Source: a virus. Taken from it: a stretch of DNA of 22,746 nucleotides. The position numbers and the translations under genes are program-made. Under the pieces are notes generated by a model, which saw only the letters and a list, made by a program, of their open reading frames with translations, made no database searches and was not told the origin of the DNA. Below, piece by piece: positions 6,371-10,626 of the stretch (position 1 is its first letter; each line of letters starts with the position of its first letter). The stretch is from the IMG/VR virus record IMGVR_UViG_3300037184_000146, positions 1 to 22,746 of that record, one strand, 5' to 3'.

Positions 6371-7567
6371 ATGGCAACACAAAGTTTACAAACAGGAAAG
6401 TATCAAGGAATAAGTAATCTTGCTATTTCAAACCATAATGGGTGGGGATCTCAGTTTACTAGACAAACAAATATAGGTAATTCGTGGAATCAAGTAACCG
6501 TGGGCGTTTTTTATACAATGGGAGGAGGATCTTCTTTAACATACACTGGTACACCAAGTGTTCAAGAATTTTTATCCAGTGGAGATAACGAATTGATTGG
6601 GTTATATTCAAGTGCGAGTTTTTCTACATTTGGTCCGATTTCTTGGTATGGTCTAAATAATTCGGGATTTATTGGAATCGGAAAAGATGACGCCGCTCCG
6701 ACACTTGGAATTAGTGCAAGTTCGTGGTTGCCATATAATACTGGAGCATCTCCTCAATTTATTGGAACGTTATATACTGGATCTGCATACGACCCTACGG
6801 CATCAGTTAATTATTATACAAGCTCGTGGGCATATACTGGGCTAGGAAGCACTCCGTACAGTTTTCCTCAAAATGGATTGACAAGTTCTCTAGGATTTTT
6901 TGCAATAACCTATCGAGTTGATAATTTAGGATCAAACACTCCTCAAATTTTGCAGGCAATAAGTATGTCGATTTATGTTGACTCGCCGACTGCTTCGTTA
7001 AACGGTGGGCCAATAACTGAAGCAGATATTCATCCATTGATGATTTATTTTATGGATCGAGCAAAAACACGTTCAACCCCTCCAGTTGGATTTCTTTGGT
7101 CATCTCAATTCCCCTCTACTGTACCATATGCCTTGCCCGATAGGTTATTAATAAATAATTCGTTCTTGAATAATATGTTTGTATTAGTAGCGTGTCGAGT
7201 AGCAACACAATACCAGTCTCCAATAATTCTGGGACCAGTATCAGAATCACAACATAATACATCAGAATCGTTTTCTTCATCGTATAATCTAACATATGTA
7301 ATGTCAGTTAATGCCACTGGGAGTGTTGGATCACTGTCGTATCAGTGGCAATACCTTCCGGGGTATTATCCTATTGTTGGTTCATGGAAAGATTTAACTT
7401 CGTCTTATTCTTATAGGATGACTGGAGCACAGACCCCATTACTTCACTGGTATGCTCATAGGAGTGATGGTACAGGAGGAGCACTTCGTTGTATAGTTTC
7501 AGATGCTATCGGCTCGGTGACTAGTAGTTTGTACTATTATTATACAGGTGAAATTCGTGGCGGATAA
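6371..7567 (+). CDS. Tail-fibre / virion surface protein with C-terminal Ig-like domain
   Basis: This 398-aa protein is rich in Ser, Gly, Thr and Tyr with no membrane segment. The first 240 or so residues (GVFYTMGGGSS ... FAITYRVDNLGS ... AISMSIYVDSP) are beta-rich and not assigned. The last 100 residues look like an Ig-like fold: SLSYQWQYLPG, then WKDLTSSYSYRMTGAQTPLLHW, then ALRCIVSDAIGSVTSSLYYY, matching the strand B Y-W pattern and the strand F C-x-V pattern of phage Ig-like domains. Such domains often decorate virion proteins and may help weak surface attachment. It starts 5 nt after the previous gene and ends the structural block. Membership in the fibre assembly is inferred from position. 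Confidence 0.65.
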   Translation: MATQSLQTGKYQGISNLAISNHNGWGSQFTRQTNIGNSWNQVTVGVFYTMGGGSSLTYTGTPSVQEFLSSGDNELIGLYSSASFSTFGPISWYGLNNSGFIGIGKDDAAPTLGISASSWLPYNTGASPQFIGTLYTGSAYDPTASVNYYTSSWAYTGLGSTPYSFPQNGLTSSLGFFAITYRVDNLGSNTPQILQAISMSIYVDSPTASLNGGPITEADIHPLMIYFMDRAKTRSTPPVGFLWSSQFPSTVPYALPDRLLINNSFLNNMFVLVACRVATQYQSPIILGPVSESQHNTSESFSSSYNLTYVMSVNATGSVGSLSYQWQYLPGYYPIVGSWKDLTSSYSYRMTGAQTPLLHWYAHRSDGTGGALRCIVSDAIGSVTSSLYYYYTGEIRGG

Positions 7568-7584: not shown

Positions 7585-7613
7585 TTGACTTTTCATTTTC
7601 TTGAGCGATACTT
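7585..7613 (+). promoter_or_regulatory. Promoter of the RNA block
   Basis: TTGACT (7585-7590) is followed after 16 nt by GATACT (7607-7612). It is preceded by AAAATAGTTC, which with TTGAC forms a 15-nt element also found at 8894 and 12626. Predicted transcription starts near 7619. It would drive the structured RNA and, by read-through, the tmRNA. Confidence 0.65.
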
Positions 7614-7618
7614 ATCCT

Positions 7619-7847
7619 TGTTCTTTGAAACAGTTGTGGCCGGAAACCTCAGCTGATACAACATGACAGACGGTAAAATCCTTAAAATGGAGGGTAGACC
7701 GTAGAGATAAAAGGCCGACGTATCTGATACGTTAGCGCTTCCCATATGCAATTAAGTAGGCGTCCACAGTGATTGCCGAAAGCCTCGGGATAGGAAGTCC
7801 AAACTGAATCTTTGGATCGCGATTTATCTCCGTCTGTCACCTTTTTT
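7619..7847 (+). ncRNA. Unassigned structured RNA upstream of tmRNA
   Basis: There is no coding potential here, but many complementary segments. A 10-bp closing helix pairs 7664-7673 (TGACAGACGG) with 7830-7839 (CCGTCTGTCA). Inside it, 7705-7711 pairs with 7823-7829 (AGATAAA/TTTATCT, 7 bp). This encloses a hairpin at 7717-7733, a hairpin 7735-7740/7758-7763, a small hairpin 7776-7779/7785-7788, and a 6-bp arm with a 7-nt loop at 7798-7816 that resembles a T arm in shape. A U6 tract (7842-7847) follows the closing helix and touches the tmRNA 5' end. The 5' segment 7633-7662 can form GTTGT/ACAAC. An alternative pairing 7670-7674/7698-7702 (ACGGT/ACCGT) competes with the closing helix. I do not recognise the family. 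A Y-RNA-like role is possible because a Ro60-like gene lies downstream. Folds were drawn by eye. Confidence 0.5.
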
Positions 7848-8243
7848 GGGCCGTTTCTGGATTCGCTTTCGTAGGTCGCTTACAGAATGCGAGCACAGGT
7901 GGTGAACATCCTGTATAATCCTGTTTGCAAAAAATAAACGCTAAGAGAAATCTTGCTAAGGTGTCCTTCCTCAGCGCTCGCAAGAGCGTTGGTGCAGAGG
8001 CACTGAGTGTAGCCTAATTCGTTAGGTTATCCGTTCTCACCTATGACGCAGATGGTGGGATGAGAACGTCGATTATCTGCTGGTTCCCGCAAGGCACGAG
8101 GGTCGGTAACGGGAATGACATACGGAATCCTCAATTTTGATGGAGAGCATAACTAACCATCATCATATCCACTGTGCTACGCTCGTATATGTCTGTTAAA
8201 AAGCCTGCGTCTAACCGGGGTTCAAATCCCCGACGGTCCACCA
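7848..8243 (+). ncRNA. ssrA: Transfer-messenger RNA (tmRNA), one-piece
   Basis: The 5' end GGGCCGT (7848-7854) pairs with ACGGTCC (8233-8239) as a 7-bp acceptor stem, followed by A-CCA (encoded). The T arm is CGGGG-TTCAAAT-CCCCG (8216-8232). The start TTCTGGATTCG (7855-7865) matches the conserved tmRNA D-loop region. Helix 2 forms from ACAGA, GCG and AGCACAG (7882-7898) with CTGTGCT, CGC and TCTGT (8172-8196). Two clear pseudoknots follow the tag frame: 8032-8039/8061-8068 with 8048-8053/8075-8080, and 8084-8089/8110-8115 with 8098-8103/8127-8132. tmRNA with SmpB rescues stalled ribosomes and adds a degradation tag. The host normally has its own, so a phage copy may change rescue or tag choice during infection. 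It is not the permuted two-piece form. No terminator is visible at its 3' end. Confidence 0.95.
7940..8017 (+). other. tmRNA tag-peptide reading frame
   Basis: The resume codon is taken as GCT at 7940 because the preceding AAAATAAAC matches the usual A-rich sequence before tmRNA resume codons. The frame runs 25 codons to TAA (8015-8017). The peptide begins AKRNLAKVSFL, continues SARKSV and ends GAEALSVA. That is long compared with the typical 8-15 residues, and it ends in SVA rather than the common LAA or VAA. Codons 11-17 lie in a hairpin (7971-7977/7982-7988 around GCAA), equivalent to the helix that normally holds the stop codon. Confidence 0.7.
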
Positions 8244-8245
8244 TT

Positions 8246-8809
8246 TTAATTCGATTGTGTTTGAGTTTGTGCAGAGATAATATCCTTGATGAAATTTTTC
8301 ATTTCTTCACTGGATCTATTATTTTTCGCATAATTGATTGCCATGCACACGAATTCTATATTATCTTTCGTATAACCGAGGGAAGAATCAATTCTATCTA
8401 AACTCGCTTTCTTGAGAGAATGTATTTTATCATTGGTGCTTTTAGGAAGAATCATTTTGATCCCTGTATAGGGACACGTGCCATTTTGTTTCTCCCATAA
8501 TTCTTTTAGATCATTAACATTAACATGTATATCATCTTTAAGTTTTACCATCGATCCTCTGCCTGTATTTAAAAAATATCTAAACGGAGAGAATTCGTCT
8601 AATTTATTTCCGGCAGTCGATTTAAATACTGGGTGTTTTTTATACTGTTCTTTCCAATACTCCGTAGACATTATTTTATTTCTAAATGTACCGGAACAAG
8701 AATTATTACAGAAGTTTCTTAGTCCTCTTTTTTTACATCGGTTCAATTCTCCATTAGACTTCTCGAACCAGTTTCCACAATTTTCACATTTTACTTTAGT
8801 TGTACTCAT
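8246..8809 (-). CDS. HNH homing endonuclease with N-terminal zinc finger
   Basis: The start is placed at ATG 8809-8807 (MSTTKVKCENCG), giving 187 aa; upstream in-frame codons add a segment unlike the family. Residues 8-38 carry Cys pairs (CENCG ... C ... CNNSC) typical of a DNA-binding zinc finger. The HNH core is GTCPYTGIKM followed by SLDRIDSSLGYTKDNIEFVCMAINYAKNN, the usual form of free-standing phage homing HNH enzymes, which nick or cut DNA at a target site and spread by repair. Its stop codon lies 2 nt beyond the tmRNA CCA on the opposite strand, so it converges on the tmRNA. No intron is seen. It separates the tmRNA from the Ro60-like gene and is probably a mobile insertion. Confidence 0.85.
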   Translation of the reverse strand: MSTTKVKCENCGNWFEKSNGELNRCKKRGLRNFCNNSCSGTFRNKIMSTEYWKEQYKKHPVFKSTAGNKLDEFSPFRYFLNTGRGSMVKLKDDIHVNVNDLKELWEKQNGTCPYTGIKMILPKSTNDKIHSLKKASLDRIDSSLGYTKDNIEFVCMAINYAKNNRSSEEMKNFIKDIISAQTQTQSN

Positions 8810-8903
8810 ATAGATAAATAGTGGACTCGGCGGGAAAGTCATCGAAAATAATAGCGTCGGCTCCATTATTTACTTTTTATAACAAAATAAGTGAAAATAG
8901 TTC

Positions 8904-8983: not shown

Positions 8984-9134
8984 AAGACGCTTGCAGCAGT
9001 TCTAATTAACAAAAACGGCGTCTTGCAAAAACAACTTCAAAGACGGATACAGCAAACCAAAACTAAGGCTTGCCACGGATCGAAAGATCAATGGCCGGTT
9101 TCCCAAGGGTTTCCGCGATAACCCCCGCCGTCTT
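8984..9134 (+). ncRNA. Structured leader RNA / possible small RNA before the Ro60-like gene
   Basis: The leader holds two closed domains. The first pairs AAGACGC (8984-8990) with GCGTCTT (9018-9024). The second, 9040-9134, is closed by AAGACGG/CCGTCTT (9040-9046/9128-9134) and contains two arms. Arm A is 9054-9058/9097-9101 (AAACC/GGTTT), then GG/CC, CCA/TGG and GATC-GAAA-GATC, with all large bulges on the 5' strand. Arm B is GGGTT/AACCC (9107-9111/9120-9124). This makes a 95-nt three-way junction ending 13 nt before the start codon. The repeat CGNCGTCTTGCAA occurs at both 3' ends (9016-9028, 9126-9138). It could be a cis-regulatory leader, a binding site for the encoded protein, or a processed Y-like RNA. 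No known family is recognised. Confidence 0.45.
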
Positions 9135-9138
9135 GCAA
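9016..9138 (+). repeat. Direct repeat pair CGNCGTCTTGCAA
   Basis: The copies at 9016-9028 and 9126-9138 match at 12 of 13 positions and are 110 nt apart. Each is the 3' arm of one leader hairpin. Confidence 0.6.
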
Positions 9139-9147
9139 TTTAATACC

Positions 9148-10626
9148 ATGAACAAACTAATCAATACGATCACCAACACCGTTGGAAAGACCCTGACCGA
9201 GAATGGGGCATTGACCAACGACAAGTCCGGGTCCAAGGTTTTGGATCTGTTTTCATTGGGTGGAGCACTGCGATCACGTACTGATGCAGATATTCTTTCC
9301 ATCTTTGTTGCTGCATTCGACGAAGATCCTTTGCTGGCATTGAAGACTCTTTTCTATCTCCGTGATATTCGTGGAGGACAGGGAGAGCGTAAAGTATTTC
9401 GTTTGTGTATACGATGGATTGCATCGACACACTCGGATATCTTTGTTTCGAATCTTGATAACATCGTCAAGTTTGGTCGTTGGGATGATATGTTTGAAGC
9501 ATTCGGAACACCAGCCGAGAAGGCAATGGTGAACTTCATCAAGAAGCAACTTGCGGCAGATGCACGTGCTCCTGAGAGTGAATCTATTTCATTGTTGGCC
9601 AAGTGGATGCCATCAATCAATACTTCAAGTGAAGTAACTCGTGGTCAGGCTCATCAATTCTCCAAGGCGTTCAAGTTTACTTCTGCCAAGTACCGGAAGA
9701 CTCTTTCAGCACTTCGTGCTCGTTTGAATCTTGTCGAAACACTCATGTCCGGTAATGAATGGAGTGAAATCGACTTCGAAACTGTACCAAGCAAGGCAAA
9801 CCTGAATTACAAGAAAGCATTCAGCCGTCACGAGGCTGATCGTTATATCCAGTTCATCAAGGATGTTCAGTCAGGTGAAAAGAAGATGAATGCTTCGGCA
9901 TTGTATCCTTATGAAATCATCCGTGATATCGAAAAAGGCGGTGGGTCGGATAAGGAAGCATTGGACGCTCTCTGGAATTCGTTGCCAGACTTCTTGAAGA
10001 ATAATCCTCACAACGGATTGGTGCTTCCAGACGTGTCCGGAAGCATGTCGAGTGCTTATGGTACGACTGTTATGCCAATTTGGGTGTCGGTTTCGTTGGC
10101 AATTTATTTCGCTCAACGGAACAAGGGTGCATTCAAAGACTATTTCTTGGAATTCTCGTCGAACGCAGTTCTTCGTCGTTTGGTGTCCAAGAACATCGTC
10201 GAAGCATGGGAGGAAGTCAGCAACAGCACTACGTGGTGTAATTCGACTAATCTTCAGAGTGCATTTGACGTGATCTTGAATGCAGCGATCAAGGGCAAGG
10301 TTCCTGCTGAGGAGATGCCTTCGGTGCTTTATATCATCAGTGATATGGAATTTGATCAAGCTTGCTCAAACAATCGAAAGACCAATTTTGACAAGATTAA
10401 GCAGAAGTATGGCCATGCCGGATATCAGATGCCTGTGATTTGTTTCTGGAACGTTGCTGCACGGAGCAATCAATCTCCTGTTACGAAGGATGAAAATGGA
10501 ACAATCATGGTAAGTGGATGTTCTCCATCTATCTTCAGTCAAGTCATTTCAAATGAGATTATAACTCCATATGAGTTTATGCTTCAAGTCTTGAACAAGG
10601 AGCGATACAACACCGTGGTTGTATAA
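9148..10626 (+). CDS. DUF2828-family Ro60/TROVE-like protein with vWA domain
   Basis: The 492-aa form starting MNKLINTITNTVG is chosen because family members begin near this point and the upstream in-frame starts (9070, 9091) fall inside the structured leader. Residues about 30-275 form a helical-repeat domain with the family signatures FYLRDIRGGQGERKVFRL, LLAKWMPSIN and YPYEIIRDIEKGG. Residues from about 290 form a von Willebrand A domain with an intact metal site, DVSGSM (295-300), and a later strand YIISDMEFD. This is the architecture of Ro60: a ring of helical repeats that binds RNA ends plus vWA. Ro60 acts in RNA quality control with Y RNAs, but DUF2828 proteins are little characterised, so RNA binding is inferred. 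The gene looks less AT-rich than its neighbours, possibly from separate origin or high expression. A strong terminator follows. Confidence 0.8.
   Translation: MNKLINTITNTVGKTLTENGALTNDKSGSKVLDLFSLGGALRSRTDADILSIFVAAFDEDPLLALKTLFYLRDIRGGQGERKVFRLCIRWIASTHSDIFVSNLDNIVKFGRWDDMFEAFGTPAEKAMVNFIKKQLAADARAPESESISLLAKWMPSINTSSEVTRGQAHQFSKAFKFTSAKYRKTLSALRARLNLVETLMSGNEWSEIDFETVPSKANLNYKKAFSRHEADRYIQFIKDVQSGEKKMNASALYPYEIIRDIEKGGGSDKEALDALWNSLPDFLKNNPHNGLVLPDVSGSMSSAYGTTVMPIWVSVSLAIYFAQRNKGAFKDYFLEFSSNAVLRRLVSKNIVEAWEEVSNSTTWCNSTNLQSAFDVILNAAIKGKVPAEEMPSVLYIISDMEFDQACSNNRKTNFDKIKQKYGHAGYQMPVICFWNVAARSNQSPVTKDENGTIMVSGCSPSIFSQVISNEIITPYEFMLQVLNKERYNTVVV

Follow-up and report, generated by a model that had tools for sequence, protein, structure and literature searches.

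The window analysed here, a whole 22.7-kb IMG/VR virus record, carries directly in front of its tmRNA gene a member of a family of structured RNAs that, as far as tested, lies outside Rfam. Members of this family adjoin phage tmRNAs, share their promoter and have been exchanged between related phages as a cassette. The RNA is a real gene, and we lean towards regarding it as a stand-alone, folded non-coding RNA of the phage, ~180 nt long, that is co-transcribed with the tmRNA, freed by RNase P and active in trans. The preliminary description of this locus had proposed either a separate RNA or a tmRNA leader cut off by RNase P, which remains the right pair of alternatives; the two are compatible, because an RNase P cut at the 5′ end of the tmRNA would free the RNA.

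The tmRNA locus and its relatives

The locus comprises the following features, all on the plus strand:

7585..7612 (+), sigma-70-like promoter TTGACT-N16-GATACT, common to the RNA and the tmRNA (consensus scan; similar block in relatives)
7620..7628 (+), boxA-like leader GTTCTTTGA, shared by all relatives for which upstream sequence exists, L035 among them
7631..7655 (+), extra 5′ hairpin CAGUUG...CAGCUG, window only (RNAfold)
7664..7839 (+), RNA body, classed as type II in the tmRNA-linked family (match to model R1, from which the window was excluded)
7842..7847 (+), U6 tract, abutting the tmRNA (sequence)
7848..8243 (+), one-piece tmRNA with tag AKRNLAKVSFLSARKSVGAEALSVA (ARAGORN; Rfam RF00023, 60.4 bits)
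9070..10626 (+), Ro-like protein gene (phrog_850, E 2.4e-141; DUF2828 and DUF7788)

As originally described, the U6 tract runs into the tmRNA without a gap. The consensus scan for promoters returned about as many matches as in shuffled sequences and is weak evidence alone; a TTGAC...GATA[AC]TTAT block similar to that of the window precedes the RNA in relatives, and also the RNA-less tmRNA of L035. The GTTCTTTGA leader is presumably equivalent to the boxA of rRNA operons. By inspection, the hairpin at 7631-7655, between this leader and the RNA body, is absent from L088 and from the type I members (see below). The tmRNA is directly followed by an HNH/endonuclease VII-like gene (8246-8866, minus strand), which separates it from the Ro-like gene and is probably a homing endonuclease insertion.

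Among cultured phages, BLAST returned no credible relative, and the weak blastn matches to Bacteroides phages fall inside annotated genes and are due to chance. Neither a first DNA pattern derived from the window alone nor the neighbouring gene (6371-7567) used as a query gave any match. A DNA pattern for the tag region of the tmRNA yielded 21 loci in viral contigs, nearly all with a related RNA directly before the tmRNA. Patterns derived from the RNA itself, with no tmRNA required, then added further members, all adjoining a tmRNA, and two chance matches, L066 (viral) and L069 (the only match in genome_contigs), which are G+C-rich, have no tmRNA and lack the surrounding helices; the genome_contigs pattern matches thus contained no bacterial homologue. 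With eleven additional contigs from a final scan for tmRNA variants, the RNA is carried by 41 IMG/VR contigs besides the window, each time directly 5′ of a phage tmRNA and behind the sigma-70-like promoter and the boxA-like leader. Several of these contigs are near-identical, and the 21 representatives that were aligned comprise 19 distinct sequences. One contig (L035/L052), the nearest relative of the window by protein, has a tmRNA without the RNA.

Each of the nine records searched for further copies holds a single RNA, and in the two longest RNA-bearing records the major capsid protein is of the T4 type (Gp23). Cultured phages with other genes in common with the window (hosts Flavobacterium and Microcystis) have no tmRNA above the Rfam cut-off. 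Of the tmRNAs behind the RNA in L057, L058, L062, L088 and L094, several were missed by ARAGORN, and some of these have diverged 5′ ends, e.g. GGGCTCGTTTTTAGATTC.

Fold and covariation

In type I, a 13-bp helix P1 (GAAACGUGUAGGG/CCCUACACGUUUU) joins the two ends of the RNA. It encloses hairpin P2, a long arm, the invariant sequence AUAGG and the hairpins P7 and P8; the arm comprises P3, P4 (GAC/GUC or AAC/GUU), an AGUA/GAA module on P5 and a hairpin P6. The pairings covary strongly. In nine type I sequences, two-sided changes occur in 23 of the 44 pairs, and 97% of the cells are paired; these measures were matched by none of 500 shuffles, and sliding the partner strand by 1-3 columns lowers pairing to ~40%. 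When the window and L088 are included (19 distinct sequences), two-sided compensatory changes are found in 28 of the 44 pairs and standard pairs in 96.4% of the cells, values reached in 0/500 shuffles, in an alignment that is model-fitted and therefore biased towards the structure.

A covariance model built from the nine sequences, the window not among them (R1), matches positions 7685-7849 of the window (31.2 bits, E 2.5e-7; next-best match in the window, E 0.61), and the L088 group scores 41.6 bits with the family model. The window has the core features of the family, namely P3, the AGUA/GAA module on P5, AUAGG and P7, and we conclude that its RNA is a member. The structured RNA proposed from the letters alone is thereby confirmed, and its homologues do preserve the pairings. 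A covariance-model scan of the window, L054, L060 and L068 against Rfam 15, at E values up to 5-10, gave, apart from the tmRNA, only chance matches below the gathering thresholds, in agreement with the initial failure to recognize a known family, and a limited search of the open-access literature found no structured RNA family described at this position.

The elements of the window RNA are as follows:

7664..7673 (+), P1 5′ strand, partner 7830-7839, perfect 10 bp
7678..7695 (+), P1b hairpin AUCCUU/GAGGGU, strands 7678-7683/7690-7695, type II only
7705..7711 (+), P1c 5′ strand AGAUAAA, partner 7823-7829, 7 bp (sequence; model match)
7718..7732 (+), P2 hairpin ACGUAU/AUACGU (sequence; P2 covaries in the family)
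7740..7743 (+), P3 5′ strand UCCC, partner GGGA 7787-7790, covarying in the family
7755..7780 (+), putative sarcin-ricin/loop E-type motif, AGUA 7755-7758/GAA 7778-7780 on P5 GGC 7759-7761/GCC 7775-7777
7790..7794 (+), invariant AUAGG, linking P3 to P7 (kept in all rows of alignment A4)
7798..7816 (+), P7 hairpin, 6-bp arm with 7-nt loop CUGAAUC (family: two-sided changes at 7/7 pairs)

The AGUA and GAA strands are unchanged in all aligned members, while the adjacent P5 ranges from GGC/GCC to GGU/ACC; judging from this sequence pattern and the covarying helix beside it, the module appears to be of the sarcin-ricin (loop E) type. P3 occurs across the family as UCUUC/GAAGA, UCUUU/AAAGA, UCUCA/UGGGA, UCCCU/AGGGA and UCCC/GGGA. 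The AUAAAAGG block at P1c of the window corresponds to UUAAAAGG in type I.

All helices named in the preliminary description, that is, the 10-bp and 7-bp helices, the hairpin 7678-7683/7690-7695 and the 6-bp arm with its 7-nt loop, are present where they had been placed. Their tRNA-like interpretation is not supported by the comparison. The presumed T-arm is P7, for which the loops in the family (CCGAAU, CCAAAU and CUGAAUC) include no T-loop, the acceptor-like helix is the inner closing helix, and inspection of the RNA by eye revealed neither a T-loop-like loop nor a tRNA-like domain. The suggested switch is likewise unsupported, because the alternative pairing 7670-7674/7698-7702, present in the letters of the window, is not conserved in L088, the other type II member.

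Two types of the RNA and their exchange

The window and the L088 group constitute type II, which keeps P2, P3, the AGUA/GAA module, AUAGG and P7, has no P8 (a hairpin confined to type I) and, inserted after the outer closing helix and before P2, carries an extra hairpin, P1b (window 7678-7695). Within this type, P7 and the extra hairpin differ in letters between the window and L088 and retain the same shape: at the position of P1b, L088 has GCCC/GGGC, and a related closing stem, CAGACGG, is the counterpart of P1.

Close relatives may carry different types. Between L088 and L057/L094, the upstream DNA is 64-94% identical in 50-base windows (flanks mostly 70-94%) and the tmRNA mostly 92-100%, whereas the intervening RNAs belong to different types and are 34-58% identical. 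The converse is seen in the pairs L036/L085 and L051/L094, where the RNAs are 76-83% identical and the identity of the upstream DNA drops to 33-44%. In L053, an RNA of the L037 group precedes a tmRNA with a different 5′ end, suggesting recombination at the boundary. Finally, L035 retains the promoter, boxA and tmRNA, with 16 nt in place of the RNA, which shows that the RNA is dispensable for one tmRNA-bearing phage. The occurrence of different RNA types in near relatives identifies the RNA as a cassette, passed on and exchanged as a unit.

Possible roles and comparison with known RNAs

The RNA would be the first unit of a stable-RNA operon in the order promoter, boxA, RNA and tmRNA. RNase P generates the 5′ end of tmRNA, and given the shared promoter and leader, the RNA would emerge from this cut with paired ends. 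Its ends are joined by a helix of 13 bp in type I and 10 bp in the window, as in many stand-alone RNAs, and we infer that a cut at the first base of the tmRNA, together with this closing helix, would both free and protect the RNA. The freed molecule could then act in trans, with its conserved core (P3, the AGUA/GAA loop-E module, AUAGG and the P7 loop) as the probable binding site for a protein or the ribosome. Release with paired ends, the exchange of types before near-identical tmRNAs and the absence of the RNA from L035 together favour such a separate, trans-acting RNA.

The main rival, somewhat less probable in our estimate and still serious given the strict linkage to the tmRNA and the boxA-like leader, is a cis-acting leader that controls tmRNA synthesis, either as an aptamer resembling a riboswitch or, together with boxA, as an attenuator/antiterminator in which the closing helix and the U-rich tail form a regulated terminator. 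All 41 relatives adjoin a tmRNA, and the RNA was never seen away from one, even in the pattern searches that did not require it, which also fits a cis-acting element. The loop-E module and the invariant joining nucleotides resemble ligand-binding cores, and the tmRNA of phage Melnitz has been reported with an associated glutamine riboswitch (PMC9004378). On the other hand, no alternative pairing is conserved, no Rfam riboswitch scores, and the tmRNA of L035 stands behind a similar promoter with no such element. P1 is followed by a U-rich spacer in relatives, with U6 in the window, L036 and L037 and U5 in L067 and L088, but runs of at least five U are missing in L039, L048, L051, L054 and L085. 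A G+C-rich stem directly followed by an unbroken U run, as expected of an intrinsic terminator or attenuator, is therefore not a feature of all members, and a terminator tool, which considers short loops only, called none in the window. Only some members thus have a tail that hints at a terminator.

We regard as rather unlikely a more specific version of the trans-acting reading, in which the slot before the tmRNA would hold interchangeable RNAs exchanged under selection, e.g. decoys or inhibitors of host RNA-targeting defences or of the host translation machinery, delivered together with the ribosome-rescue RNA of the phage. A 5′ processing or folding aid, with the leader positioning RNase P or preventing misfolding of the precursor, seems less likely still. 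The RNA is indeed the immediate 5′ leader of the tmRNA in all members; yet L035 manages without it, two very different RNA types precede tmRNAs that hardly differ, and where some members show, by eye, a stretch of RNA complementary to the tmRNA, others lack it. Replacement or loss of the RNA next to a retained tmRNA does not suggest an aid specific to that tmRNA.

A phage Y RNA, which would tether a Ro-like protein to RNA-decay or repair enzymes, was considered because the Ro-like gene of the window lies 0.8 kb downstream of the tmRNA, and genes for bacterial Y RNAs are located close to Ro (PMC7790460). This idea is very improbable and was rejected, since the Ro-like gene is not linked to the RNA in relatives: eight other RNA-bearing records, contigs of 297 kb and 185 kb among them, were searched for phrog_850 without a match, and 31 contigs chosen for their Ro-like genes gave no significant family match. 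The likeness to bacterial Y RNAs/YrlA lies in the vicinity of a Ro-like gene in the window; no tRNA-like domain was seen, and no Rfam Y RNA model matched. Homologues of the Ro-like gene in mycobacteriophages are annotated as 'Ro-like RNA binding protein', 677 cultured phage records carry a homologue, and many related viral contigs have a Ro-like gene near tRNA arrays; the structure predicted for the protein from its single sequence was of poor quality (pLDDT 38) and was left unused. One phage contig with a Ro-like gene encodes a bacterial class A RNase P RNA (L006:1-215; RF00010, 125 bits), which is truncated by the contig end and directly followed by a tRNA-Ile gene.

The folding energy of the single sequence is unremarkable (z = -0.74 for 7619-7847 and -1.82 for 7664-7839), so that folding alone is no proof of structure, but covariation, the model match and conservation leave practically no room for a chance structure or an overlooked coding stretch, which the covariation already refutes.

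Several known RNAs invite comparison. RNase P RNA can be set aside, with no RF00010 match in the window or in four RNA-bearing records. Large ornate phage RNAs such as GOLLD and ROOL are likewise structured and found in phage tRNA/tmRNA neighbourhoods; they are larger, at several hundred nt, and the window RNA matches no Rfam model. The glnA riboswitch also has a loop-E motif. The glutamine riboswitch of Melnitz (glnA/Downstream-peptide motifs) resembles our case as a structured RNA tied to a phage ssrA (PMC9004378). However, the Melnitz ssrA is two-piece, whereas that of the window is one-piece, the order of the helices differs, and the Rfam glutamine riboswitch models gave no match up to E 10. 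The RNAs rnaC and rnaD of T4 (species 1 and 2) are similarly small stable phage RNAs with no annotated function, encoded head to tail with tRNA genes; they differ in their sizes (139 and 119 nt) and in lying next to tRNA-Arg, with no tmRNA, and the family model has no match in T4 69500-75500, even at E 10, which speaks against homology. Stable, structured RNAs that phages encode together with tRNA-like genes are thus a kind already known from T4; as far as checked, the form that is linked to tmRNA and exchangeable is new. As a well-supported structured RNA family that is tied to phage tmRNA and, in the members scanned, matches no Rfam model, it bears on the reason for the presence of tmRNA in phages. 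A partner RNA that is closely linked to the tmRNA, can be exchanged and has an invariant loop-E core offers a concrete handle on this question, in a small region open to expression, pull-down or deletion.
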